DNA of 64,000 nt from Deltaproteobacteria bacterium (lineage in GTDB: Bacteria; Desulfobacterota; Deferrisomatia; Deferrisomatales; BM512): positions 43,073 to 107,072 of the forward strand of contig PKTT01000003.1 in the NCBI GenBank assembly GCA_002869015.1, read 5' to 3'. The notes under the pieces were generated by a model, which worked only from the letters and a program-made list of their open reading frames with translations, ran no database searches and had not been told where the DNA came from. Numbering within the stretch: position 1 is the first letter of the stretch; every line of letters begins with the position of its first letter. A program made the position numbers and the translations under genes. Shown here piece by piece: positions 41,645-62,680 of the stretch.

Positions 41645-42190
41645 GTGGACCTTATAGGCGAAAAGTTAAAACTGATGAGGGAGGCGCGCCGCCTGACCCT
41701 CAAACAGCTTGGTGAGAAGGTCGGCTGCACCGGCGCGCACCTTTCACTAATCGAGAAGGGAAACTCCTCCCCATCTATCGCCACCCTTAAGAAGATCGCC
41801 GAAGCGCTGGGCGTCAACATTGTCGATTTTTTCACGGCAAAGGAGGAGGCCGAGCCCGTAGTGATGAAGGTCTCCGACAGACGCGACGTATCCTTGCGTA
41901 ACTGGAACGCCAAAATACAGCAGCTTGTGCAGCACAATGAGGGCAAGATGATACAGCCCTTTTACACCATAGTATCGCCCGGCGGCGGCTCTATGGAGAC
42001 CTACACCCATGTCGGCGAGGAGTTTGGCATAGTTATAAAGGGCGTGCTCTCTATAGAGGTTGACGGCAGGCGCTATCAGGTGAATCCGGGCGAATCATTC
42101 TACTACTCCTCCCGAAGCCCGCACATGTGGGTTAATGAGGGCGAGGTGGATGTCGAGGTGGTATGGGTCGTCTCGCCGCCTAGCTGGTAA
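41645..42190 (+). CDS. XRE-family transcriptional regulator with cupin sensor domain
   Basis: KLKLMREARRLTLKQLGEKVGCTGAHLSLIEKGNSSPSIATLKKIAEALG HTH; HVGEEFGIVIKGVLSIEVDGRRYQVNPGESFYYSSRSPH cupin; GTG start. Confidence 0.92.
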   Translation: MDLIGEKLKLMREARRLTLKQLGEKVGCTGAHLSLIEKGNSSPSIATLKKIAEALGVNIVDFFTAKEEAEPVVMKVSDRRDVSLRNWNAKIQQLVQHNEGKMIQPFYTIVSPGGGSMETYTHVGEEFGIVIKGVLSIEVDGRRYQVNPGESFYYSSRSPHMWVNEGEVDVEVVWVVSPPSW

Positions 42191-42685: not shown

Positions 42686-43750
42686 ATGAGAGCAAGGAAA
42701 CTTTTAATGGCAGGACTGGTGCTTGGTCTGGCGGCCGCGGGTATCTTTACCGCCCCAACCGTCTCAAGCGCGAGCGATGACACTGTACACATCCGCTTCA
42801 GCACCTGGCACCCCCCGGCGAGCCGCGAGGTCAAAACCGTATGGGAGCCGATGCTCGAAGAGATGAAGAAACGCTCCAACGGGCGCATCACCTACACCCT
42901 TTATGCCGGCGGCGCGCTAGGCAAGGGGCCGGAGCACTTTGACATCGTAAAGAACGGCCTCTCCGACATGGGTTACTTCACCGCCTCCTGGACACCTGGC
43001 CGCTTCCCCAAGTCTGACGTCCTCTCCCTCGCGACGAGCGTCGACTCCAAGGCCACCGCGGCGACCATCGGCAAAGAGATGTATGAAAAAGAGCTCAAAG
43101 ATGAGTTCGAAGGCGTGAAGGTTATGGAGCTTAACGGCTGCATACAGGCCTTCATCTGGACCCGCCAGCCCGTTAAAAGCCTTGAGGACCTCAAGTCCCT
43201 CAAGATCAGGACCCCCGGTGGTCACCAGACCAACTACATCAAAGCCCTCGGCGCAGAGCCGGTCTTCATGCCCCTTGGTGACGTATACCTAGCCCTTGAG
43301 ACCGGCACGATCGACGGCCTCGTAACCTGCTCCCCCCTCGTCCTCGCCTTCAAACTTCACGAAGTCGTCAAATACGGCGTAAAGGCCACCTTCGGCTGCG
43401 TAACAGAGGGTGTAGTCGCAAACCAGAAGTTCTGGGACAAGGTGCCGGACGACCTGAAGGCCATCATTGAGGATGTAGCCTCCAACCCCTACGAAGCCAC
43501 CGGCGGCCTCGACCACAAGGTCTATGGTGAGATGATCTCCGAGATCGAATCCAAGGGCGTAACCCTCTACGAGCTTCCCGCCGAGGAGTCTGCGCGTTGG
43601 TCCGAGCGCTTCCAGGACGAGACTCGTAAGTGGGTCAAAGACCTAGAGGCAGAGGGCAAGGGTGCCAAAGAGGCGGTCGTGATGTACAACCAGATCGTCG
43701 GTAAAGAGGGCATCACCTGCACAGCTTTCCCCGCTGAATGGCACGAATAG
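42686..43750 (+). CDS. dctP: TRAP transporter periplasmic substrate-binding protein (DctP family)
   Basis: IRFSTWHPPASREVKTVWEPMLEEMKKRSNGRITYTLYAGGALGKGPEHFDIVKNGLSDMGYF; followed by DctQ and DctM. Confidence 0.92.
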   Translation: MRARKLLMAGLVLGLAAAGIFTAPTVSSASDDTVHIRFSTWHPPASREVKTVWEPMLEEMKKRSNGRITYTLYAGGALGKGPEHFDIVKNGLSDMGYFTASWTPGRFPKSDVLSLATSVDSKATAATIGKEMYEKELKDEFEGVKVMELNGCIQAFIWTRQPVKSLEDLKSLKIRTPGGHQTNYIKALGAEPVFMPLGDVYLALETGTIDGLVTCSPLVLAFKLHEVVKYGVKATFGCVTEGVVANQKFWDKVPDDLKAIIEDVASNPYEATGGLDHKVYGEMISEIESKGVTLYELPAEESARWSERFQDETRKWVKDLEAEGKGAKEAVVMYNQIVGKEGITCTAFPAEWHE

Positions 43751-43781: not shown

Positions 43782-44273
43782 ATGTCTTTATACCTGAAGA
43801 TCAGGGGCTTGGTGCAGCTTGTCACTAAGCGCTTGGCGCAGATTGGCATGTTTGTAGTGATGCCCATGATGTTTCTGACCTTCGCGGATGTTACCGGCCG
43901 GGCCCTCTGGGACCGGCCGGTATCCGGCTCCCTGGAGCTATCCAGCTACATGCTGGCTGTCTTCGTCCTCTTGGGCGTGGCATATACGCACCAGGTACGT
44001 GGACACGTCAGGGTTGAGATGCTCCTTCAGCTATTGCCGAAGCGGATGCAGGCATTCCTTGATGTGGTGACCACGGCCCTCTCAATGTTCATCATCGCGA
44101 TCCTCGCGATAGAGGGGTTTAAGGCCGGTATCTCTGAAACCGCGGTCTCCGACATGCTCCGCGTCCCCCAGTGGCCCTTCAAATCCCTGGTGGCCGTTGC
44201 CGGGCTTATGCTCTTTTTGGAGCTCTTGTTCGATTTCTTTGAAAACGTGGCACGATTGGTAAGGAGATGGTAA
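43782..44273 (+). CDS. dctQ: TRAP transporter small permease (DctQ family)
   Basis: Four TM segments; FADVTGRALWDRPVSGSLELSSYMLAVFVLLGVAYTHQVRGHVRVEML. Confidence 0.92.
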   Translation: MSLYLKIRGLVQLVTKRLAQIGMFVVMPMMFLTFADVTGRALWDRPVSGSLELSSYMLAVFVLLGVAYTHQVRGHVRVEMLLQLLPKRMQAFLDVVTTALSMFIIAILAIEGFKAGISETAVSDMLRVPQWPFKSLVAVAGLMLFLELLFDFFENVARLVRRW

Positions 44274-45580
44274 TGGACCCGGTAACTATTGGAATACTGG
44301 GCACCGTTGGCTTGTTTGTTCTCCTCGCCATCGGAATGCCCATAGCTTTTGCGCTTATGTTCGTCGGCTTCATGGGGATAACGACACTGGCCTCGATGGA
44401 TGCGGCCATGCCCGTCGTAGCCTCTACGATGTACGAAGTCTCTTCATTTTTCCCATATACGGTAATACCGCTCTTTATTGTGATGGGCGCCTTTGCCGGT
44501 AGCTCAGGGCTCACTAAAGACCTTTACAGCGCCTTTGAAAAGTGGCTGAGAAAGCTTCCGGGAGGGCTAGGAATAGCCACTATCTGCGCCTGCGCGGGCT
44601 TTTCAGCGGTCTCCGGCTCATCGGTTGCGACCGCCGCCGCGATGGGCACCGTCGCCCTGCCGGAGATGGAGCGTTACAAATATCACCCGCGCCTTGCCAC
44701 CGGCAGCGTAGCGGCTGGCGGCACCCTCGGCTTTCTGATACCGCCGAGCATAGGCTTTGTCGTCTATGGAATGCTCACGGAGCAGTCTATTGGAAAGCTC
44801 CTTGTAGCAGGAGTTATCCCCGGTTTGCTTTTGGCGCTCGCCTTCATCACCATCATTATTGTTACAGTAAAGATGAACCCCTCCCTCGCCCCAAGGCGCG
44901 ATGAGGAGGTGACGTGGAAAGATCGCTTCAGCGCGCTGCTCGGCGTCTGGGAGCCTATGCTCCTCTTCATCATCGTCATAGGCGGCATCTACCTGGGCTT
45001 TTTCACCCCCACAGAGGCTGGCGCCATCGGCGCAACGGTGCTCTTCGGGGTTGCGCTTATAAAGAAAAAGCTCCGCTGGGTCGATCTTCTTGAGGCGCTA
45101 ACCGAATCAACGCGCATATCTGTAATGGTCCTCTTCCTTGTCGCTGGCGCAAATGTGTTCAGCTACTTCCTCGCGCTATCCACCATACCCATGCAGGTGG
45201 CGAATTGGGCGAGCTCCCTTACAGTTTCTCCCTACCTGATTCATTTCGCGATTCTCTTCATCTACCTCATCCTGGGATGCTTTCTGGATGCGATTTCGAT
45301 GATGGTGCTGACAATGCCCGTCATCTACCCGGTAATAACCACCCTTGGTTTCGACCCCATATGGTTCGGCGTCATAGCTGTTCTGATGATGGAGGCGGGG
45401 CTTATAACCCCTCCGATGGGGCTCAATATCTTCACTGTTGCCGGTGTCTCGAAGAACGTAAAGGTGGAGACGATATTCAGGGGGGTAATGCCCTTCCTGC
45501 TGGCGATTATAGTTGTCGCGGTGATACTCACCTTCATCCCCTCACTGGCGCTTACTCTGCCAAAGATGATGATGAGATAA
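44267..45580 (+). CDS. dctM: TRAP transporter large permease (DctM family)
   Basis: FAGSSGLTKDLYSAFEKWLRKLPGGLGIATICACAGFSAVSGSSVATAAAMG; overlaps dctQ by 7 nt. Confidence 0.95.
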   Translation: MVMDPVTIGILGTVGLFVLLAIGMPIAFALMFVGFMGITTLASMDAAMPVVASTMYEVSSFFPYTVIPLFIVMGAFAGSSGLTKDLYSAFEKWLRKLPGGLGIATICACAGFSAVSGSSVATAAAMGTVALPEMERYKYHPRLATGSVAAGGTLGFLIPPSIGFVVYGMLTEQSIGKLLVAGVIPGLLLALAFITIIIVTVKMNPSLAPRRDEEVTWKDRFSALLGVWEPMLLFIIVIGGIYLGFFTPTEAGAIGATVLFGVALIKKKLRWVDLLEALTESTRISVMVLFLVAGANVFSYFLALSTIPMQVANWASSLTVSPYLIHFAILFIYLILGCFLDAISMMVLTMPVIYPVITTLGFDPIWFGVIAVLMMEAGLITPPMGLNIFTVAGVSKNVKVETIFRGVMPFLLAIIVVAVILTFIPSLALTLPKMMMR

Positions 45581-45616
45581 GCAGCATTCAAGTAGCTATT
45601 AAGAGAAATGAAATAC

Positions 45617-45651
45617 CCCGGACGCGTTCTTTTGCGCGGCGCGCGTCCGGG
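45617..45651 (+). repeat. GC-rich hairpin (perfect 10-bp inverted repeat) between dctM and the Mo-hydroxylase genes
   Basis: CCCGGACGCG (45617-45626) / CGCGTCCGGG (45642-45651), 15-nt loop, no following T-run. Confidence 0.7.
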
Positions 45652-45682
45652 CTCTTCACGCCTTAATGCATGGAGGTCCCAA

Positions 45683-46144
45683 TTGTTCGTTGAATTTACA
45701 TTAAATGGCGAAAAGGTCTCAGCCGAGGTCTCCGGCGAGACTACAGCCTTGGCACTTTTGCGGGAAAAGTTCGACCTCACAGGAGCTAAAGAGGGCTGCG
45801 GCGTAGGCGAATGCGGCGCTTGCACCATCCTTGTTGACGGGGTCGCGGTGAATGGATGTCTTTATCTGGCGGGTAAGCTGGATGGGCGCAATGTCTTGAC
45901 CGTGGAGGGTGTAGGGGGCGAGGAGGCGCTCGACCCGCTACAGCAAAAGTTCATGGAGCATGGAGCGGTTCAGTGCGGCTACTGTACGCCAGGGATGCTC
46001 CTCAGCGCCAAGGCGCTCCTCCTAAAGAACCCGAAGCCGACCGTTGACGAGGTAAAGGTGGCGATATCGGGGAACCTCTGCCGCTGCACCGGTTACACAC
46101 CAATAGTCAAGGCGATCCTGGCGGCAACAGGGGAGGGGAAATAA
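45683..46144 (+). CDS. Molybdenum hydroxylase (xanthine dehydrogenase family) small [2Fe-2S] subunit; candidate nicotinate dehydrogenase small subunit
   Basis: GCGVGECGACTILVDG and QCGYCTPGMLLSAKALL...GNLCRCTGY; TTG start at 45683. Confidence 0.92.
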   Translation: MFVEFTLNGEKVSAEVSGETTALALLREKFDLTGAKEGCGVGECGACTILVDGVAVNGCLYLAGKLDGRNVLTVEGVGGEEALDPLQQKFMEHGAVQCGYCTPGMLLSAKALLLKNPKPTVDEVKVAISGNLCRCTGYTPIVKAILAATGEGK

Positions 46145-46995
46145 TGGCTGATAGGGAATATCTGAGGCCATCTACCCTCGTTGAAGCGGTCGAACTTATG
46201 GCGGCGGCCCCCGGAAGGAGGATCGTCGCGGGTGGCACAGACCTTATGGTTTACATCCGTGAGGGGAAGGAGCGGCCCTCCGCGCTGGTAGACGTTACCG
46301 GCATACCGGAGCTAAATGGGGTACGGAAATTGGATGACGGCGCCCTTGCCGTCGGCGCCGCAATGACCCACTCAATGATAGGGAGCGATCCAGTTATACA
46401 GGCTGTGGCGCCGCTCCTCTCCGATGCCTCTTCCAGCGTCGGCGCGGTGCAGATAAGGAACCTGGCTACAATAGGCGGCAACGTCGTAAACGGCGCCGTT
46501 GCGGCTGATACGCTCTCCGCCCTCGCCGCCTTCGATGCGGCATTTATCACCTACGGGGCCGAGGGTGAAAAGCGCTACACGATAGATGAGTTTTTCCTCT
46601 CCCCCGGCAAGACTGCCGTTGGCGCTGGCGAGATACTGACTAAGATTATACTGCCCCCGCAGCCAAAAGCGGCACACGCCTTCATAAAGGTGGCGAGGCG
46701 CAGGGCGGCGGCGATAAGCCGCCTGGCGGTTTCCGTGATGGCGAATCCCAGCGAAGGGTACGCCCGGATAGCCGTCGGCGCGGTGCTCCCAAAGCCTGGA
46801 CGCATAACCATGGCGGAGGAGGCTTTAATGAATGGCTTTGACCTCTCGGCGGCAAAAGCTGCCGGCGATGCCGCCAAGGCCCACGTTCTCTCCATCTCCG
46901 GGGAACGCCCCTCAATGGTCTATAAGCTCCCCGTGGTCAGCTCGGCGGTGGAAAAGGCGATAATTAAAGCGCTCTCACTAAAGGGGGTGAAGTAA
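46144..46995 (+). CDS. Molybdenum hydroxylase FAD-binding (medium) subunit
   Basis: RRIVAGGTDLMVYIREG, AVQIRNLATIGGNVVNGAVAADTLSALAAFDA. Confidence 0.93.
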   Translation: MADREYLRPSTLVEAVELMAAAPGRRIVAGGTDLMVYIREGKERPSALVDVTGIPELNGVRKLDDGALAVGAAMTHSMIGSDPVIQAVAPLLSDASSSVGAVQIRNLATIGGNVVNGAVAADTLSALAAFDAAFITYGAEGEKRYTIDEFFLSPGKTAVGAGEILTKIILPPQPKAAHAFIKVARRRAAAISRLAVSVMANPSEGYARIAVGAVLPKPGRITMAEEALMNGFDLSAAKAAGDAAKAHVLSISGERPSMVYKLPVVSSAVEKAIIKALSLKGVK

Positions 46996-49241
46996 TGGGT
47001 ACCTTCAATAAAGTGGTGGGCGTTGACGGCGTACGCAGGGACACCGTCGATAAATTGACAGGCAAGGAGCGCTTCTCCGGTGACTACAAAATTCCCGGCG
47101 CGTTGGCGCTTGCAATAGCTCGCTCAAGCGAGGCGCACGCACTGATAAAAAATATCGATTTAACCAAAGCCAAAGCGCTCCCCGGCGTCGTCAGGGTGTT
47201 CACAGCCGAGGATGTGCCCGGTGAAAACAGCTACGGAATCATCCCCATAACCAAGGACCAGCCTATGCTGGCCGCTGGCAAGGTGCGCTTCAAGGGTGAG
47301 GCTGTTGCCCTTGTCGCTGCGGAAAGCCTGGAGGTTGCCCGGGAGGCGGCAGCGCTAATAGAGGTGGAGTATGAGCCTCTTAAGGCGAGCTTCACCCCGG
47401 AGGAGGCGCTGGCTGATGGCGCGGAGGCAATCCACGATAAAGGCAACCTCTGCTTCGAGCATGACTCATTAATGGGCGACCCCGACAAAGCCTTCGCGGA
47501 GGCTGCCGTCATAGTTGAGGATACTTACACCACCAGCGCCATCGAGCACAGCTACATGGAGCCTGAGAGCGGCTTTGCTGTGATGGAGGATGGAGTAGTA
47601 GTGGTGACCGTCTCAACTCAGAATCCCCACTATGACCATGCCGACCTCTGTCGCCTATTGGGGCTTGAGGAAGATAAGGTGCGGGTAAAGCAGGCGACGA
47701 CCGGCGGCGGTTTCGGTGGGAAGCTGGACCTTTCCGTGCACTCCTACGTCGCTTTGGCGACGCTCCTCACAGGACGTCCCTCACGACTTGCCTATACTCG
47801 CGAGGAGTCTTTCGCCGCCAGCGCCAAGCGCCACTCCTTTACCATCAAATACCGCACAGCGGCGGATGCGGAGGGCAACCTCCTTGCCGTGGACGCAGAG
47901 CTTGTCGCCGATACCGGCGCATACGCTTCCTACGGTGTTGCCGTCGCAATGCGCGCAGCGGTGCACGCAGCGGGGCCATACATGGTTCCAAACTCAAGGG
48001 TTTATAGCCGGGCGGTATACACAAACCATGTCTTTAGCGGCGCGATGAGAGGGTTTGGCGTACCCCAGGTGGCCCTCGCCCATGAGAGCCAGATGGAGAA
48101 GATCGCGGCGAAGCTGGGCATGGACCCCATCGAGCTGAGGCTTAAAAACGCCCTGAAACCCGGAGACAAGACGATAACGGGGCAGGTGCTCGGTGATTCG
48201 GTAGGGATACGCGAATGCCTAGAGAAGATAAAAGCCGTCCGTGACGAGTGGGGAGCTGCTAAGGGTGATGACGATGGAGTTCGCGGTATAGGAGTCGGCG
48301 CGATGCTCTACGGCATCGGCAACACCGGCGTCTCCAACCCCTCCACAGCGCAGATCAGGGTTAATAAAGAGGGCGGCGTGACGCTATACACGGGCTGCGC
48401 CGATATAGGGCAGGGGTCCGACCATGTCCTCCTAGGCATCTGCGCGGAGACCCTCGGCCTCGCCCGCGAGGATATAGCGCTGGTGCGCGCAGATACTATG
48501 CTCACCACAAACGCCGGCGCTACAAGCGCCTCCCGCCAGACCTATATCTCAGGCAACGCCGTAAAGGCTGCCGCTGAGATGTTCATCGCAAAGGCGGTGG
48601 AGGCTGCGGCCAAGGTATCTGGGAGCGCCGCCTCCGAGCTCTGCTTTACCGGCACTGCGGTTAAAGGCCCGGATGGTGAGTTGTCACTCCTTGAGATAGC
48701 CGAGTCGCTGAGAGCGGAGGGCAGGGAGCTGGAAGGAGAGGGGTATTTTGACCCGGAGACGGTGCCCCTAGACCACCACACAGGTCAGGGCAAGCCCTAC
48801 TCCACTTATGGTTTTGCAGCCCAGCTTACGCTCGTTCACGTAGACAAAGCCACAGCCGAAGTGAGGGTCGAAAAGCTCTTTGCCGTCCATGATATAGGCA
48901 AAGCGATCTACCCCCAGGGGGTCATCGGCCAGATATCAGGCGGCTCCGCGATGGGCGTTGGCCTTGCCCTCATGGAGGAGTTCGACCACACCTCCGATAA
49001 AAACTTCGATACATACCTGATCCCCACCGTTCTAGACGTACCGGACGTGGAGGCGAGCTTTATCGAGCACGCGGAGCCCACAGGACCATATGGCGCTAAA
49101 GGGGTAGGGGAGCCGGCGCTGATTCCAACCGCACCGGCGATTGTAAACGCAATAGCAGACGCCGTTGGCGTGAGGATCACCTCGCTCCCCGCCAACCTGG
49201 AACGTGTCCATAGCGCACTTCAGTTGATGGGAGGAAAGTAA
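46995..49241 (+). CDS. Molybdenum hydroxylase Mo-pterin-binding large subunit
   Basis: TTGGGFGGKLDLSVHSYVALAT, FSGAMRGFGVPQVALAHESQMEKIA, GAKGVGEPALIPTAPAIVNAIADAVG. Confidence 0.94.
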   Translation: MGTFNKVVGVDGVRRDTVDKLTGKERFSGDYKIPGALALAIARSSEAHALIKNIDLTKAKALPGVVRVFTAEDVPGENSYGIIPITKDQPMLAAGKVRFKGEAVALVAAESLEVAREAAALIEVEYEPLKASFTPEEALADGAEAIHDKGNLCFEHDSLMGDPDKAFAEAAVIVEDTYTTSAIEHSYMEPESGFAVMEDGVVVVTVSTQNPHYDHADLCRLLGLEEDKVRVKQATTGGGFGGKLDLSVHSYVALATLLTGRPSRLAYTREESFAASAKRHSFTIKYRTAADAEGNLLAVDAELVADTGAYASYGVAVAMRAAVHAAGPYMVPNSRVYSRAVYTNHVFSGAMRGFGVPQVALAHESQMEKIAAKLGMDPIELRLKNALKPGDKTITGQVLGDSVGIRECLEKIKAVRDEWGAAKGDDDGVRGIGVGAMLYGIGNTGVSNPSTAQIRVNKEGGVTLYTGCADIGQGSDHVLLGICAETLGLAREDIALVRADTMLTTNAGATSASRQTYISGNAVKAAAEMFIAKAVEAAAKVSGSAASELCFTGTAVKGPDGELSLLEIAESLRAEGRELEGEGYFDPETVPLDHHTGQGKPYSTYGFAAQLTLVHVDKATAEVRVEKLFAVHDIGKAIYPQGVIGQISGGSAMGVGLALMEEFDHTSDKNFDTYLIPTVLDVPDVEASFIEHAEPTGPYGAKGVGEPALIPTAPAIVNAIADAVGVRITSLPANLERVHSALQLMGGK

Positions 49242-49242
49242 G

Positions 49243-50397
49243 ATGGCAACCACTAAGATTATTAACATCGGATTGATGCTCTCCGGCGACGTCGAAGCGC
49301 CCATCATAGATGCAGATACCCTCCTCGTGGAGGATGGCGTAATCAAAGCGGTGGGCGCAGAGGCGAATGTCTCCGATGTCGACAAGGTCATAGACGCATG
49401 CGGCTCAGCCCTGACCCCCGGCCTCATGGATTCGCACTGCCACCCGGTCTTGGGCGATTACACACCCCGCCAAAATCAGGTCGGCTTCCTTGAGAGCGCG
49501 GTCCACGGTGGCGTCACCACCTCCATAAGCGCGGGAGAGGTGCACCTCCCCGGCCGCCCCAAAGACCCAGCCGGGGTAAAAGCCCTCGCCATCCTCGCAG
49601 CTAAATCCTTCTCCGCATTCAGGCCGGGCGGGATGAAGGTCATCGGCGGCTCCGTAATCCTTGAGCATGGCCTCGTGGAAGCGGACTTTGAGGAGATGGC
49701 GCTAAATGGCGTCAAGACGGTCGCCGAGATTGGCCTCGGCTCCGTGAAGAGCCCGGAGGACGCCTCCGTTATGGTCAAGTGGGCTAAGAAGAATGGGATG
49801 GTGACCCTCATGCATATGGGCGGCACCTCAATTCCCGGCTCCTCTACGGTAACTGCGGAGATGGTCATTAAGGCCGGCGCGGACGTTGCCTGCCACATAA
49901 ATGGCGGCCCTACGGCGGCGTCCATAGAGGATGTAACCGCCATAATTAGGCAGAGCGACGCGATGATAGAGATTTGTCATTGCGGCAACCCCAAAATGGC
50001 GGCCTACGCCGCGCGTGAAGCGATAAACGCAGGCATGAGCCACCGCGTAATGATAGGTAACGACGCGCCCTCGGGCACCGGCGTTGTCAGCCTCGGCATA
50101 CAGCGGGTAATAGCGCACGTCTCCAGCCTAGCCGATGTGGACCCTGCGGTGGCTACCGCGTGGGCGACGGGCAATACGGCGCGCTGCCACAGCCTCCCCC
50201 AGGGCACCATAAAGGTTGGCGCTCCGGCCGATCTGCTCCTTTGCGATGCGCCGATGGGTTCAGTGGGGAGCGACCTTCTAAGCGCCTACACCGCCGGAGA
50301 TACCCCCGGTGTATCGGTGATCATGATCGACGGCAATGTAGTAGCGGCCAAGAGCCGCAATACGCCTCCCCCAAAGCGGGCGGCTAAGGTCCTTTAA
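49243..50397 (+). CDS. ena: Amidohydrolase, enamidase-like (1,4,5,6-tetrahydro-6-oxonicotinate amidohydrolase)
   Basis: DSHCHPVLGDYTPRQ, HGGVTTSISAGEVHLPGRPKDPAGVKALAI, MHMGGTSIPGSSTVTAEMVIKAGADVACHINGGPTA, GNDAPSGTGVVSLGI, C-term KSRNTPPPKRAAKVL; strongly resembles E. barkeri enamidase as I remember it. Confidence 0.85.
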   Translation: MATTKIINIGLMLSGDVEAPIIDADTLLVEDGVIKAVGAEANVSDVDKVIDACGSALTPGLMDSHCHPVLGDYTPRQNQVGFLESAVHGGVTTSISAGEVHLPGRPKDPAGVKALAILAAKSFSAFRPGGMKVIGGSVILEHGLVEADFEEMALNGVKTVAEIGLGSVKSPEDASVMVKWAKKNGMVTLMHMGGTSIPGSSTVTAEMVIKAGADVACHINGGPTAASIEDVTAIIRQSDAMIEICHCGNPKMAAYAAREAINAGMSHRVMIGNDAPSGTGVVSLGIQRVIAHVSSLADVDPAVATAWATGNTARCHSLPQGTIKVGAPADLLLCDAPMGSVGSDLLSAYTAGDTPGVSVIMIDGNVVAAKSRNTPPPKRAAKVL

Positions 50398-50425: not shown

Positions 50426-51934
50426 ATGAGGATTGATGCCGAGCGCTGCATTGTTTGCGGCAAATGTGTAAAAAATTGTCCCTTGGAGGCAATCTCCATA
50501 GTCGACAAGAAGGTAGTAATCGACGAGGCTATTTGCGTTGATTGCTCCGTGTGCTCCCGCGTCTGCGGTGAGGAGGCGGTGCTCTCGACGGGCCAAGTAG
50601 CAGAAGGGACAATTATCTGCGACTCCTGCCCCGTTGCTTGTTCAATTCCCGAGGGGCTGACAGGCGCATGCCACCGCTACATAAACGAGGGTGGGATGCT
50701 AAAGCGCATGGCAAGGCTTCACACCTTTGAGGACGTCAAAGATATCGTCGGCCCCGATTGGGAGCCGGCGATAAGGGAGCCGATTGTCACCGCAATCGGT
50801 GCGGGGACCACCTACCCGGACTGCAAGCCCGCCCCCGTCATAGTGAGCGGCGTACGTGATGGTGTCGATGTGGTCACCGTAGTCACCGAGGTTCCCCTTA
50901 GCTACAGCGGCGTCAAGGTTAAGATAGACACAGACGTGACCATCGGTGAGGAGGGCGCCGCGGTTTATAGCTCCGGCAGAAAGGTGGGCCACCTTACCAC
51001 CGAGGAGTACGGCTCAAAGATTGTAGCGATCGGCGGCGTAAACACCCTCACCGGAGGCCCCGACGGCTTTACCGCCGCGAGGCTTATGACGGATATCTGT
51101 AATCAAAAGCCCTTCTCCCTAAGGGTAGAGGGCGGCGCAAAGCTTAAACTCTGCGTCGGCAATGCGCCTGTGATAGATGGCAAGGAGATTGGGAAGATGC
51201 GCGTCGGCTGCGGCTCAGCGACAGTGGGCCTCTTCGCGCCCTTCTTCCTCAAGGCCGCTGACGAGGTTGTGGTTCTGGACAGCCACTTGACCGCGCTCTT
51301 CACCGAGCACACCGCAGGCAGGTTTTTGGGAACGACTCCTTCAGGTGTGAAGATCAAGTTCCCCCGCTCGACGCCGGGACGTTACTTCGGAGACCACGGC
51401 TCTGGTTGGGGCGGCACCTCAGTAACTTCCCCGGAGGAGGTCTTTGCCGAAGGCGGGCTCGACGGAGTAAAGGGCGGAACCACTATTCTCATCACTGAGA
51501 CCACCGGCCAAAACGCCGCCCTCTTTGAGGTTGTCGAAGGCGGAGGGGTAAAGGAGATTGAGATAACCCCCAAAGCGAAAGAAGCTGTAAACGCTGTGAG
51601 CGAGTCCTGCCAGCCCAGCCGTGTCTCCGCTTTCTACGCCGGTGGAACGGGCGGCTCCGCCCGCGCCGGAGTGGTCAAGCGCCCAATCAAGATAACGCAG
51701 GCGGTGCACGACATGCGCGCGCGCCTAACCGTTGGCGGCGCGCCCACCTTTCTAATGCCGGGCGGCGGCATAAACTTCTTTGTAGATGTCGAGAAGGTCA
51801 AGAAGGGGTCCTTCACCTGGGTGCCGACCCCCGCGCTCGTCGTGCCGGTAGAGTACACGATGCGCGTTACCGATTACGAGGAAATCGAGGGGCATATAGA
51901 AGCTATGAAGCCGGAGAAAGAGGTTGTCAAGTAG
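50426..51934 (+). CDS. hnr: 6-hydroxynicotinate reductase-like Fe-S protein
   Basis: N-terminal ferredoxin module CIVCGKCVKNCP...CVDCSVCSRVC...CDSCPVACSI followed by the long conserved C-terminal domain; adjacent to the enamidase gene. Confidence 0.85.
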   Translation: MRIDAERCIVCGKCVKNCPLEAISIVDKKVVIDEAICVDCSVCSRVCGEEAVLSTGQVAEGTIICDSCPVACSIPEGLTGACHRYINEGGMLKRMARLHTFEDVKDIVGPDWEPAIREPIVTAIGAGTTYPDCKPAPVIVSGVRDGVDVVTVVTEVPLSYSGVKVKIDTDVTIGEEGAAVYSSGRKVGHLTTEEYGSKIVAIGGVNTLTGGPDGFTAARLMTDICNQKPFSLRVEGGAKLKLCVGNAPVIDGKEIGKMRVGCGSATVGLFAPFFLKAADEVVVLDSHLTALFTEHTAGRFLGTTPSGVKIKFPRSTPGRYFGDHGSGWGGTSVTSPEEVFAEGGLDGVKGGTTILITETTGQNAALFEVVEGGGVKEIEITPKAKEAVNAVSESCQPSRVSAFYAGGTGGSARAGVVKRPIKITQAVHDMRARLTVGGAPTFLMPGGGINFFVDVEKVKKGSFTWVPTPALVVPVEYTMRVTDYEEIEGHIEAMKPEKEVVK

Positions 51935-51937
51935 CTG

Positions 51938-52804
51938 ATGAGCGCCTGGCGCGACGGCGAGGCATTCCTCACAGAGGATGGGACACTCCGCGTGGAGTGG
52001 GGCCCTGTAAGCCTGATGGCTGTCGCTGAGTGGGATAAAAAGAGAGCGCCGGAGAAGCTTAAGAAGGCAGGTGATTACTGCCTTGGAGTTCTCGCGGAGG
52101 TCGCCAGAGATGCGGCGATATTAAAGCAGGATATTAAAAGGATAAAGATCATCGGGGGGCTTTCACCACATTCGGCGCGGATGGTCGAGGTGGCGAAGCT
52201 CTTCCCCGGAAGATTTATAACACCGATGATATCGGTCGCTGGGACTGTCGCCGAGGCTGTTGCCAGAAAATTGTTCGCCCTGGGCGCGGATAGGGTGCTG
52301 GTATCAAATGGTGGCGATGTTGCGCTGGTGCTCCCCTCGGGAGGGGAGGCGAAGGTGGGGTTGGTGGCTCGACTCGGTGATTCAGAGCCCTCCTTTGTGG
52401 TCAACGTAAGGGAGTCCGACCATGTAGGCGGCGTAGCCACCAGTGGCATGGGTGGACGGAGCTTCACCCTTGGAATTGCCGACGCGGTGACGGTTTTTTC
52501 CGGCAGAGCCCCTGTGGCAGATGCGGCAGCGACCCTCATCGCCAACGAGGTCAACGTAAAGAGCGAAGCGATTTTACGGGCGCCGGCATCATCAATAGAG
52601 GCCGGCAGCGACCTCGGCGAGATGATGGTAACCCAAAGGGTGGGAGAGTTAACTCATCTAGAGGTTTCAGAGGCATTGGAGAGAGGGGCTGCCTGTGCAA
52701 GGGAGCTTCTTGACTCCGGTCTAATACTGGGCGCCTTTCTCACCCTTAGGGGGGAGCGGCGCATTGTCGGCTATCCGGGGCCGAATAGAGTTGAAGGGCT
52801 TTAG
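51938..52804 (+). CDS. UPF0280-family protein (ApbE superfamily)
   Basis: GGLSPHSARMVEVAKLFPGRFITPMISVAGTVAEAVARKLFALGADRVLVSNGGDVALVL...TSGMGGRSFTLGIADAVTVFSGRAPVADAAATLIANEV. Confidence 0.85.
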   Translation: MSAWRDGEAFLTEDGTLRVEWGPVSLMAVAEWDKKRAPEKLKKAGDYCLGVLAEVARDAAILKQDIKRIKIIGGLSPHSARMVEVAKLFPGRFITPMISVAGTVAEAVARKLFALGADRVLVSNGGDVALVLPSGGEAKVGLVARLGDSEPSFVVNVRESDHVGGVATSGMGGRSFTLGIADAVTVFSGRAPVADAAATLIANEVNVKSEAILRAPASSIEAGSDLGEMMVTQRVGELTHLEVSEALERGAACARELLDSGLILGAFLTLRGERRIVGYPGPNRVEGL

Positions 52805-53481: not shown

Positions 53482-54966
53482 ATGAGCACTGAAATCAAGA
53501 TGAAAAAACACTATGGGATGCTGAAGCTTCTCATAGGCGGCGAATGGGTGGAGTCAAAGTCCACCAAAATCCAGAAGAGCTACAACCCCGTCACCGGGGA
53601 GGAGATAGCGGAGTTCCCCGAGGCGACCAAGGAGGAGGCGCGCGCGGCGGTAGAGGCGGCGCAGAAGGCCTTCCTCGTATGGAAAAACGTGCCCCTGCGC
53701 GAGCGCGCAAGGCTACTCTTTGACCTGCGCGGTTTTCTCGACGCGAATGAGGAGGAGCTTTCACGCATCTTAAGCCAGGACCACGGCCGCACCATCGGCG
53801 AGGCGCGCGGCTCCATACGCCGCTCCATTGAGAACGTCGAGTCAGCCTGTTCCGCAGCTTATCGTCTGGTGCGCGACAACGAGCACCTCGACTCCCTCGC
53901 CAACGGCATCGATCAGACCCTGGTATGGGAGCCCCTTGGCCCCTTCCTCGTCGTGACCCCCGGCAACATCCCGGTTCACGCGTGGTCCTCCTTTGTTCCC
54001 TACGCGCTGGCGACAGGCTGCACAGTTGTCGTAAGCCCCAGCCGTCAGGATCCAGTGGCCGCAGACGCCATCGCTCGCGCCGCCACCGCCGTCGGATTCC
54101 CCCCCGGCTGCATCAACCTCGTACACGGCGGCCGCCACATCAATAAATACATCCTCGACCAGCCCGAGATTCAGGGCGTCGGCTTCATCGGCTCCACCCC
54201 CGCGGGTTGGGACCTCTACAAGCAGTGCGGCGAGCTCGGCAAGGTCTCCTCGCTAAATGGTAACGGCAAGAACAACGTCGTCATCATGGACGACGCCGAC
54301 ATGGACCAGGTCGCGCAGTGGCTCCTTCGTTCCTGCTTCGGCATGGGCGGTCAGCGCTGCCTCGGCTCCGACAACGTTATCTTCGTCGGCGAGCGTTACG
54401 AGGAGCTCAAAGAGAAGTTCGTCGCAGCAGCCAAATCGCTGAAGCTCGGAGACGGCCTTGATGAGTCCACCGGCCTCGGGCCCATGTGCACCCAGGCTGG
54501 CAAGGACAAGGTGATCGACTTTATCGGCCGCGCGCTTGACGAGGGGTGCCAGATGGTGCTTGACGGCAGAAACCCCGTCGTTGAGGGTTGTGAGAATGGC
54601 TACTTCCTCGCGCCTACCATAATGGAGAACGGCAACCCCGACATGGAGACCTCAAAGGAGGAGTCCTTTGGCCCCGTGGCGGTGCTGATGCGCGCCAAGG
54701 ACCTCGATGAGGCCCTCGACTGGATAAACAATAAGACCAATTACGGCCACTCCGCCTGCATCTTCACTGCAAGCGGAAAAGCTGCCCGCAAGTTCTCCAA
54801 GGAGGCGATCGTAGGCAACGTCGGCATCAACGTAGCCGTTCCGCAGCCCTACGCCTTCTTCCCCCTCGGCTCAAAGAGGGAGTCCTTCCTCGGCAGCGCC
54901 AAGAGCAGAATGGCGTCGCTCAGACTCTTCCTCGACGAGAAGACGATTACCTCCCGCTGGGTGTAA
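53482..54966 (+). CDS. Aldehyde dehydrogenase, methylmalonate-semialdehyde-dehydrogenase (MmsA)-like
   Basis: Catalytic MGGQRCLGSD (Cys293); NGNGKNN in place of ELGGK; MmsA-like C-terminus VGNVGINVAVPQPYAFFPLGSKRESFLGS...EKTITSRWV. Confidence 0.85.
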   Translation: MSTEIKMKKHYGMLKLLIGGEWVESKSTKIQKSYNPVTGEEIAEFPEATKEEARAAVEAAQKAFLVWKNVPLRERARLLFDLRGFLDANEEELSRILSQDHGRTIGEARGSIRRSIENVESACSAAYRLVRDNEHLDSLANGIDQTLVWEPLGPFLVVTPGNIPVHAWSSFVPYALATGCTVVVSPSRQDPVAADAIARAATAVGFPPGCINLVHGGRHINKYILDQPEIQGVGFIGSTPAGWDLYKQCGELGKVSSLNGNGKNNVVIMDDADMDQVAQWLLRSCFGMGGQRCLGSDNVIFVGERYEELKEKFVAAAKSLKLGDGLDESTGLGPMCTQAGKDKVIDFIGRALDEGCQMVLDGRNPVVEGCENGYFLAPTIMENGNPDMETSKEESFGPVAVLMRAKDLDEALDWINNKTNYGHSACIFTASGKAARKFSKEAIVGNVGINVAVPQPYAFFPLGSKRESFLGSAKSRMASLRLFLDEKTITSRWV

Positions 54967-60307: not shown

Positions 60308-62680
60308 CTAGAAACTCCTAACGGCAAGATAAGGATATGAAACCCGTTTGTAGGTATAATTTATTTGGCCGGTCGTATATATATACCATGCAAAAGAAGC
60401 GTCGCGTTGTGATGACGTCCAGTATTGTCCTGGCGCGGGCTGAAGCGCTTTTGATGAGAGTTTGTTGTATATAAGAGACATTTCATCATTTGAGGGCAGG
60501 AACCAATCGCTGTAGCCATTAAGGGAGAGGCTGTCGCAAAGTTTGGCCGCAGTACCATCGCTTGAGCATGAAGCAACGATGGAGGCGGTGTTTGTGGCGC
60601 CGGAACCAACAATCGTATTGGTCGGGATATCAGTTCCCTCGCAACCCCAAGTTCCAGCTCCAGGACTTTGTGGTGTGACGACCATCCCGTGCTCCCCTGT
60701 CTCTTCTAGATAAAAAACAACCCCACCGGCATAGTTTTGACCAATATATGGTGTTGGCGGCGTAAGGGTAGTGAATACCTTCTCCGGGCCATAAGCTGTG
60801 CCTACGCTGTTGGTGGCGTAAGCCCTAGCGTAGTAGGTTCTGTTTGCGTAAAGCCCCTCCATATTAGAGGTGAAGGCTGCTGTTCCGCTTCCATCCTCTG
60901 AGTGGGTGTTTCCGGTTGAGGGCTGTGTAAAATAGTTCCAGGTGACGCCCTTCTGAGTTATCTGGCATCCGCCATCGTCCTCGATAAGCCCTCCGGAAGT
61001 CGCAGTGTAATAGCCGATGTCGGTAATATCGCTTGTGGTCACCGTGGGAAGCAGACCGGTGCTCAACGAAGTTTGGGAGCCATAGCCTGTGCCGGTGCTA
61101 TTTGTTGCGTAGGCCCTTATGTAATAGACGATGCCGCAGCCGCTCAGCCCGGTTGCTGTGCTTGAGAAGAAACCGACGCCGCTTCCGTCGACGTAACAGG
61201 AATCAGCAAGGGTAGGCTCCGGTGTCGTGCTCCAGCAGATGCCGCGTGCCGTTACCGTAGAGCCTCCATCCGAGCTTACATAGCCGCCGCTTGAGGCCGT
61301 TGAGCTGCCGCTAATGGAGGAGGAGACCGTTCCCACGACGGGCACCGTCGGGCCTGGGTAGACAAGGTCAGTTGTGGTGAAGGAGAGCTCGTTGCCGTAG
61401 GTCGTGCCCACCGCGTTTGTTGCATAGGCTCTTACATAGTATGTGGTCAATGGGGTAAGGCCGTTTAACGTGCTGTTATAGCTGTCGGGTCCTGTGCCAT
61501 CGGTTGTCGTAAAGTTAGCGGTTGCGGGGGAGGGATTTACGCTCCAACATACACCTTTGGCAGTTATGGCTGAACCTCCATCAGTCGAAATTAGCCCGCC
61601 GGAGCCCGCTATGTTGGAGGATATGCCGGTAATAGCTTTGGTAGTGAGCTCGGGTGCTACCATCGAGAGGGTGGTTAGCGTAACCTCATTGCCGTAAGAG
61701 GTGCCAACCTCATTCACCGCGAACGCTCTTATATAATAGGTGGTGTTTGAAACAAGCCCGGTGATATTCGTTGAGAAGGATCCCAGCCCGCCCGGTTCGG
61801 AGTAGCAGGTATCTTCAATGTCCGGCGACTGGAAAGTAGACCAGCAGAGGCCCCTTGCTGAGAGCTGTGAGCCATTGTCTTGCGTCACGTTTCCGCCTGC
61901 CGTCGCGGTCGTATAGGATACGCTGGAGGGGGACACTGTCAGCACCGTAGCAAGCTCCAGCATCCCTGTGGTGAAGGTTAGATCGTTGCCATAGGAGGTT
62001 CCAAGGTCGTTGGAAGCGTAAGCGCGTACATGGTAGGTAGTATTTTGTGACAGCCCCGTCATCAGTGCGATGAAGCTCCCTGAGCCAACGCCCTCGCCAA
62101 AACAGGTGTCATCCAAAGTTGGGTTCACCACCTCAGATACGCATACTCCCCGCCCTATGATTGGCAGCCCTCCGTCGTCCAGAATATCACCACCGGAGAT
62201 AGCGGTGGCAGGGGTTATGTTTGAGATGGCAGCGGTGCTAATCGCAGGTGTGGTCAGGTTTTTTGTTGAGAAGGATATATCTTCGCCGAAGGAGGTTCCT
62301 CCTACATTTGCGGCAAAGGCCCTCACGTAGTAGGTAGTCTCCGGGTTTAGCCCATCCGCCAAAACGGAGAATTCCCCATCTCCAGTTCCCCCAAGATAGA
62401 CTGCGTCCTCAAGACCTGGCTCTGGACTTTCGGAGAGACAAACACCCCTGGCGACGATGTATTCGCCCCCGGAATCAGTAATCTCTGCATTAATGCTGGC
62501 GGAGGTATACGTTATGGATTCAGCGTTTACCGTTGTCACCAGCGGCAAATCGGCTGAATAGTAAATATTCGTTTCGTCGGAACCGCAACCAGAAAAGATG
62601 ATCAGAAGGAGTAAGGATGCAAAGCTAACCAGGCAAAAATTTTTCATTCCAGCTACCTCCACAATTAGGTTGTGAACCAA
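60308..62680 (-). CDS. Repeat-containing surface lipoprotein (Fn3-like repeats plus C-terminal DUF1566/Lcl-like domain)
   Basis: Lipobox LIIFSGCGSDE; six copies of TTYYVRAYATNxxGTxYGNExxFTT; C-terminal YNKLSSKALQPAPGQYWTSSQRDASFAWYIYTTGQINYTYKRVSYPYLAVRSF. Confidence 0.8.
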   Translation of the reverse strand: MVHNLIVEVAGMKNFCLVSFASLLLLIIFSGCGSDETNIYYSADLPLVTTVNAESITYTSASINAEITDSGGEYIVARGVCLSESPEPGLEDAVYLGGTGDGEFSVLADGLNPETTYYVRAFAANVGGTSFGEDISFSTKNLTTPAISTAAISNITPATAISGGDILDDGGLPIIGRGVCVSEVVNPTLDDTCFGEGVGSGSFIALMTGLSQNTTYHVRAYASNDLGTSYGNDLTFTTGMLELATVLTVSPSSVSYTTATAGGNVTQDNGSQLSARGLCWSTFQSPDIEDTCYSEPGGLGSFSTNITGLVSNTTYYIRAFAVNEVGTSYGNEVTLTTLSMVAPELTTKAITGISSNIAGSGGLISTDGGSAITAKGVCWSVNPSPATANFTTTDGTGPDSYNSTLNGLTPLTTYYVRAYATNAVGTTYGNELSFTTTDLVYPGPTVPVVGTVSSSISGSSTASSGGYVSSDGGSTVTARGICWSTTPEPTLADSCYVDGSGVGFFSSTATGLSGCGIVYYIRAYATNSTGTGYGSQTSLSTGLLPTVTTSDITDIGYYTATSGGLIEDDGGCQITQKGVTWNYFTQPSTGNTHSEDGSGTAAFTSNMEGLYANRTYYARAYATNSVGTAYGPEKVFTTLTPPTPYIGQNYAGGVVFYLEETGEHGMVVTPQSPGAGTWGCEGTDIPTNTIVGSGATNTASIVASCSSDGTAAKLCDSLSLNGYSDWFLPSNDEMSLIYNKLSSKALQPAPGQYWTSSQRDASFAWYIYTTGQINYTYKRVSYPYLAVRSF

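Follow-up and report, generated by a model that had tools for sequence, protein, structure and literature searches.

A probable 2-formylglutarate dehydrogenase of methylmalonate-semialdehyde dehydrogenase type in a nicotinate operon of a deltaproteobacterium

Nicotinate fermentation in Eubacterium barkeri begins with nicotinate dehydrogenase, 6-hydroxynicotinate reductase (Hnr) and enamidase, and continues through a B12-dependent 2-methyleneglutarate branch, the enzymes of which include 2-methyleneglutarate mutase and methylitaconate isomerase (PrpF family). The DNA analysed here (the window; 64,000 nucleotides of assembly GCA_002869015.1) encodes the same first three enzymes, to 2-formylglutarate, but an aldehyde dehydrogenase (ALDH) follows, and a PrpF-type isomerase and a full-length B12 mutase were not found in the genome. 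What, then, becomes of 2-formylglutarate? An earlier note on this DNA had read the ALDH as an MmsA-like enzyme converting 2-formylglutarate to glutaryl-CoA. Phylogeny, gene content and linkage to enamidase support this reading, and from them we infer the chemistry: the ALDH is likely to be a dedicated 2-formylglutarate dehydrogenase of methylmalonate-semialdehyde dehydrogenase (MMSDH) type, with glutaryl-CoA as its product.

The ALDH gene closes a series of genes that share one direction and are separated by short gaps, in the order TRAP transporter, nicotinate dehydrogenase (a three-subunit molybdenum hydroxylase), enamidase, Hnr, UPF0280, PF06684 and ALDH. All features of the locus described here are on the forward strand. 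An XRE-type regulator with a C-terminal cupin-like domain (41645-42190) and the TRAP transporter binding protein DctP (42686-43750) were called from their ORFs, and both have homologues in most enamidase clusters. The small permease DctQ (43782-44273; Pfam) and the large permease DctM (44267-45580; NCBIfam and Pfam) complete the transporter. The hydroxylase consists of a [2Fe-2S] subunit (45608-46144; Fer2 and Fer2_2 domains, start codon uncertain), a FAD subunit (46144-46995; FAD_binding_5) and a molybdopterin subunit (46995-49241), the best match of which is E. barkeri nicotinate dehydrogenase (3HRD, both chains); chain A is the top PDB match and chain B covers the rest. The enamidase (Ena; 49243-50397), which would convert 1,4,5,6-tetrahydro-6-oxonicotinate to 2-formylglutarate, matches E. 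barkeri enamidase (2VUN) over its full length with an E value of 1e-132 (446 bits; next match, 33 bits). Hnr (50426-51934) carries an N-terminal 2x[4Fe-4S] ferredoxin domain and reaches 46% identity to homologues on plasmids, several carrying the annotation 6-hydroxynicotinate reductase. It is followed by a UPF0280 family protein that is conserved beside Hnr (51938-52804; best model NF003322, at 235 bits below its cut-off of 290) and an AA_synth family protein (PF06684; 52861-53439; 248.9 bits, cut-off 27). Scans for promoters and terminators found no more of them than in shuffled sequences. The product of enamidase is (S)-2-formylglutarate (PMC9304392).

The ALDH gene (53482-54966) encodes 494 amino acids from an ATG start codon, and its sole Pfam match is Aldedh. 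The top NCBIfam model is TIGR01722 (379.6 bits, E value 2e-113), with the next family 112 bits lower, and the top ten PDB matches are all MMSDHs (335 to 276 bits; next class, 212 bits). Given this lead and these ten matches, the resemblance to MMSDH is beyond chance. Two features had escaped the earlier note: the score lies under the curated TIGR01722 cut-off of 448.5 bits, which places the enzyme formally outside the family, and its cofactor motif KPSE reads SPSR. Compared with MMSDH (MmsA/IolA/ALDH6A1; TIGR01722; PDB 1T90, 5TJR, 4ZZ7), the window ALDH is only ~32-41% identical, but the fold, the catalytic Cys and the C-terminal KT.T.RW are the same. The MMSDH-type C-terminus that the note had quoted is indeed present, letter for letter (NVGINVAVPQPYAFFPLGSKRESFLGS...KTITSRW(V)). 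Other copies are 98% identical in the MAG 'Deltaproteobacteria BM525' and 81% identical in 'Deferrisomatales C14-16'.

We placed the enzyme in a quick tree of 95 ALDHs and a careful tree of 53 rows. In both, hydrolytic ALDHs separate, with support of 100/100 in the careful tree, from an MMSDH-like superclade that includes the window ALDH. A position among the hydrolytic enzymes had been named beforehand as a possible refutation; forcing clade A, the orthologues of the window ALDH, to group with succinate-semialdehyde-type ALDHs (SSADHs) costs 77 log units and is rejected (p-AU 2.4e-5). A second group, clade B, appears as the sister of clade A, a relationship with moderate support (the quick tree gives it an SH-aLRT of 92, the careful tree 72/83); a topology that puts clade A outside the rest of the MMSDH-like enzymes was not rejected (p-AU 0.34). 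By sequence, then, the window ALDH belongs with the MMSDHs and apart from the hydrolytic ALDHs, and the branching inside the superclade is less firm.

The active site was compared in an alignment of 37 clade A, 13 clade B and 45 other ALDHs. The catalytic Cys293 claimed by the earlier note is confirmed within GQRC at residues 290-293, as is the loss of the general-base Glu of ELGGK: the window ALDH reads N259-G-N-G-K-N-N, with Asn259 (codon 54256-54258) in place of the Glu (ALDH2 Glu268), and has no hydrolytic-type E-L-G-G with this residue. GQRC and the missing Glu are invariant across all 37 aligned orthologues; the general-base position is Asn in 37/37 clade A, Gln in 13/13 clade B and Glu in 13/13 hydrolytic ALDHs. 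The absence of the general base is shared with MMSDH, and so are both conserved Arg residues. Arg114 (53821-53823) aligns with the first carboxylate-binding Arg of MMSDH, which we take to be Arg124 of B. subtilis MSDH, and is found throughout clade A (37/37), clade B (13/13) and the MMSDH set (8/8), and in 1 of 13 hydrolytic ALDHs. Arg292 and Cys293 (54355-54360), corresponding to the second MMSDH Arg (Arg301) and the catalytic Cys (Cys302), show no variation across clades A and B, the other MMSDH-like enzymes or the MMSDH set. In B. subtilis MSDH, Arg124 and Arg301 reportedly hold the substrate carboxylate.

Other parts of the window ALDH differ from MMSDH. S185-P-S-R188 (54034-54045) stands in place of the NAD-ribose motif K-P-S-E. 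Residue 185 is Ser in 29, Lys in five and Ala in three clade A members, and Lys in all 58 other ALDHs; residue 188 is Arg in 28, Trp in eight and Pro in one, so that the clade A replacement is mostly SPSR or SPSW. The cofactor preference of clade A may thus have changed, and NAD+ as the cofactor is uncertain because of the altered motif. A pocket segment that is bulky in MMSDH, N-F-P-x-M-(V/I)-P-(L/M)-W, is remodelled to N-I-P-(M/V)-H-A-W-S-S in clade A. Exactly two positions are common to all clade A and B enzymes and absent from the others: His423 (54748-54750) and Arg476 (54907-54909), each found in 50/50 enzymes of the two clades and 0/45 other ALDHs. His423 aligns with ALDH2 Leu427, near the nicotinamide, and Arg476 next to ALDH2 Glu476. 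Because both residues are potentially cationic and because of these aligned positions, they form a plausible candidate site for the second, extra carboxylate of the substrate.

We searched 395 genomes of the phylum, calling enamidase at a minimum of 50% identity, and found it in 57, of which 49 also encode a clade A or B ALDH. Clade A occurs in 37 genomes and clade B in 13, never both together. The single clade A/B carrier in which no enamidase was detected (G176) is a fragmentary assembly, 81% complete, in which the ALDH contig stops just beyond the PF06684 gene. The association has a Fisher p value of 6e-53 before allowing for relatedness and spans 15 families, across which the linkage of the two clades to enamidase clusters is nearly exclusive. 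In one family, some genomes have clade A and related ones clade B at the same position, flanked by DctM and the hydroxylase; gene order around these ALDHs is otherwise rearranged, and the association is therefore not that of one frozen operon. No decarboxylase, CoA-transferase or acyl-CoA dehydrogenase recurs inside the clusters, as judged from recurrent ORF sequences.

Eight enamidase genomes have neither clade, and in several of these the cluster runs off the end of its contig; in G113, G318 and G357 the break falls where relatives have the ALDH. G114 appears to be a genuine exception. The K114-type and other 34-41% identical MMSDH-like paralogues were considered as substitutes in these genomes and rejected, as they lack the signature. 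In four genomes of one family (f16) the clade A ALDH is unlinked and the enamidase cluster lies elsewhere in the genome; the ALDH stands apart in this way at loci L065, L066, L069, L092 and L093, and at several of these it adjoins a glyoxalase-like and a PHP-type gene. G047 has a second clade A copy in another cluster (L075:8998-10515, G047:C309). The neighbouring genes there are an amidohydrolase and genes resembling dihydrodipicolinate synthase, the TctA permease and old yellow enzyme, and the cluster may belong to another 2-formyl acid pathway.

The earlier note had suggested that the B12-dependent branch of E. barkeri is bypassed and that a glutaryl-CoA dehydrogenase be sought elsewhere in the genome. 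The genome is 95% complete. It contains no match to PrpF-family isomerases and no full-length B12 mutase among its B12-binding matches, which are short subunits, radical-SAM-type proteins or spurious; the absence of both markers agrees with a bypass. The only ALDH-fold genes are the window ALDH and ProA. Glutaryl-CoA dehydrogenase was found on the same contig, ~86 kb upstream of the ALDH, in a row of three genes. The beta subunit of a Na+-pump decarboxylase scores 494 bits, above its cut-off; the dehydrogenase has GlutCoADH_Des as its best NCBIfam model (448 bits against a cut-off of 470) and 3MPI from Desulfococcus as its best PDB match; and subunit A of glutaconyl-CoA decarboxylase reaches 742 bits, with the next family at 133 bits. 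A known counterpart pairs the glutaryl-CoA dehydrogenase Acd of Desulfococcus multivorans with a Na+-translocating glutaconyl-CoA decarboxylase; relatives of both are adjacent here, but the genes lie outside the nicotinate operon and nicotinate is the proposed feed. A second glutaconyl-CoA decarboxylase A is located in a beta-oxidation region. Across the phylum, a glutaconyl-CoA decarboxylase match is present in 41/57 enamidase genomes, compared with 70/338 others, and is missing from 16 of the 57. In the genome of the window, acyl-CoA dehydrogenase is paired with glutaconyl-CoA decarboxylase A at two loci, the two pairs being different (L097:6466-10783 and L185:5283-8282); the latter lies among beta-oxidation and methylmalonyl-CoA mutase genes.

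Taken as an MMSDH reaction, in which a 2-substituted malonate semialdehyde is oxidised and decarboxylated to an acyl-CoA, the conversion of 2-formylglutarate would yield glutaryl-CoA, CO2 and NAD(P)H. Cys293 would attack the aldehyde while Arg114 and Arg292 hold the alpha-carboxylate and His423 and Arg476 the distal one. Hydride transfer to NAD(P)+ would leave an enzyme-bound 2-carboxyglutaryl thioester, and this beta-carboxy thioester would release CO2 (or bicarbonate) to give the glutaryl-enzyme. The acyl group would then pass to CoA, which we propose as the acceptor because there is no general-base Glu to activate water. That the ALDH acts directly after the enamidase is very likely, and CoA acylation is likely enough to be held with good confidence; decarboxylation on the enzyme is probable. 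Glutaryl-CoA dehydrogenase and the Na+-pumping glutaconyl-CoA decarboxylase would take the product to crotonyl-CoA and beta-oxidation. With the ALDH placed at this step, the route from nicotinate to crotonyl-CoA closes with no further missing step.

The chief rival to this reaction is that 2-formylglutarate loses CO2 first, spontaneously or by another enzyme, and that the ALDH is a CoA-acylating glutarate-semialdehyde dehydrogenase, also making glutaryl-CoA. 2-Formylglutarate is a labile beta-aldehyde acid for which CO2 loss is chemically plausible, as for malonate semialdehydes; the missing Glu would still imply a CoA acceptor, and in the Azorhizobium route decarboxylation is said to precede oxidation. 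Glutarate semialdehyde, however, would not need the Arg pair that holds the alpha-carboxylate in MMSDH, yet this pair is invariant, and the enamidase clusters share no recurrent decarboxylase gene. We consider this order of events unlikely. The nicotinate route of Azorhizobium has been reported to pass through glutarate (PMC3511419), which counts in favour of early decarboxylation and is a precedent for a hydrolytic ALDH that releases free glutarate for activation by a CoA-transferase or ligase. The genome has one CoA-transferase family III gene (CoA_transf_3), and free glutarate could therefore be activated. Against hydrolysis, the general-base Glu present in 13/13 hydrolytic enzymes is missing from all 50 enamidase-linked ALDHs, the SSADH grouping is rejected and no CoA-transferase recurs among the clusters, which makes this route improbable.

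Its MMSDH-type residues, and its being the sole such gene in the genome, could also suggest that the ALDH is a generalist MMSDH (for valine, thymine or beta-alanine) that sits in the operon by chance while formylglutarate goes elsewhere. This is hard to reconcile with a near-exclusive linkage to enamidase over 15 families, two clades in one slot, a clade-specific signature and a remodelled pocket motif; the other MMSDH-like paralogues examined in the phylum have no enamidase linkage. We regard it as very improbable.

Preferring the dedicated 2-formylglutarate dehydrogenase, we think that the cluster's own ALDH branch probably turns the ring-opened nicotinate product straight into glutaryl-CoA, avoiding the B12 route of E. 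barkeri. Weighing against this reading are the score under the TIGR01722 cut-off, the altered KPSE motif, the moderate support for the sister relationship of clades A and B, the 16 enamidase genomes in which no glutaconyl-CoA decarboxylase was matched, the CoA-transferase gene, and the ALDH copies away from the enamidase cluster in f16 genomes and G047. The proposed pathway shares with that of Azorhizobium caulinodans the passage via tetrahydro-oxonicotinate and the loss of CO2 towards C5 and crotonyl-CoA; free glutarate is reported for Azorhizobium, whereas glutaryl-CoA would be formed directly here. On balance we lean towards a third route for 2-formylglutarate in bacteria, namely an anaerobic breakdown of nicotinate that does without B12 in many Desulfobacterota families, in which a dedicated His423/Arg476 dehydrogenase feeds a Na+-pumping glutaconyl-CoA decarboxylase. 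Full-text literature searches found no description of the proposed ALDH route. To our knowledge, MSDH is the sole ALDH-superfamily member described as decarboxylating during deacylation; if our reading is true, a second substrate class with signature residues of its own widens this chemistry. It would also account for how sulphate reducers and relatives oxidise nicotinate when the B12 branch is missing, and would tie the degradation of vitamin B3 to a Na+ pump; enamidase plus the His423/Arg476 ALDH would then serve as a marker for finding the pathway.

Hnr, UPF0280 and PF06684 (50426-53439; loci L109-L114) form a group in anaerobes as well as in aerobic alphaproteobacteria; the PF06684 protein likewise adjoins the other two in the latter. 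The plasmid clusters of the latter keep the trio, often with hydantoinase A/B genes beside it instead of enamidase, and those examined have no MMSDH-type ALDH. The trio is thus a unit of its own, and the ALDH goes with enamidase. The UPF0280 and PF06684 proteins may be needed for 6-hydroxynicotinate reduction. Elsewhere in the window, the reverse strand encodes a 790-residue protein with several TYY.RAYA.N..GT.YG-like repeats (60308-62680), apparently a surface protein.
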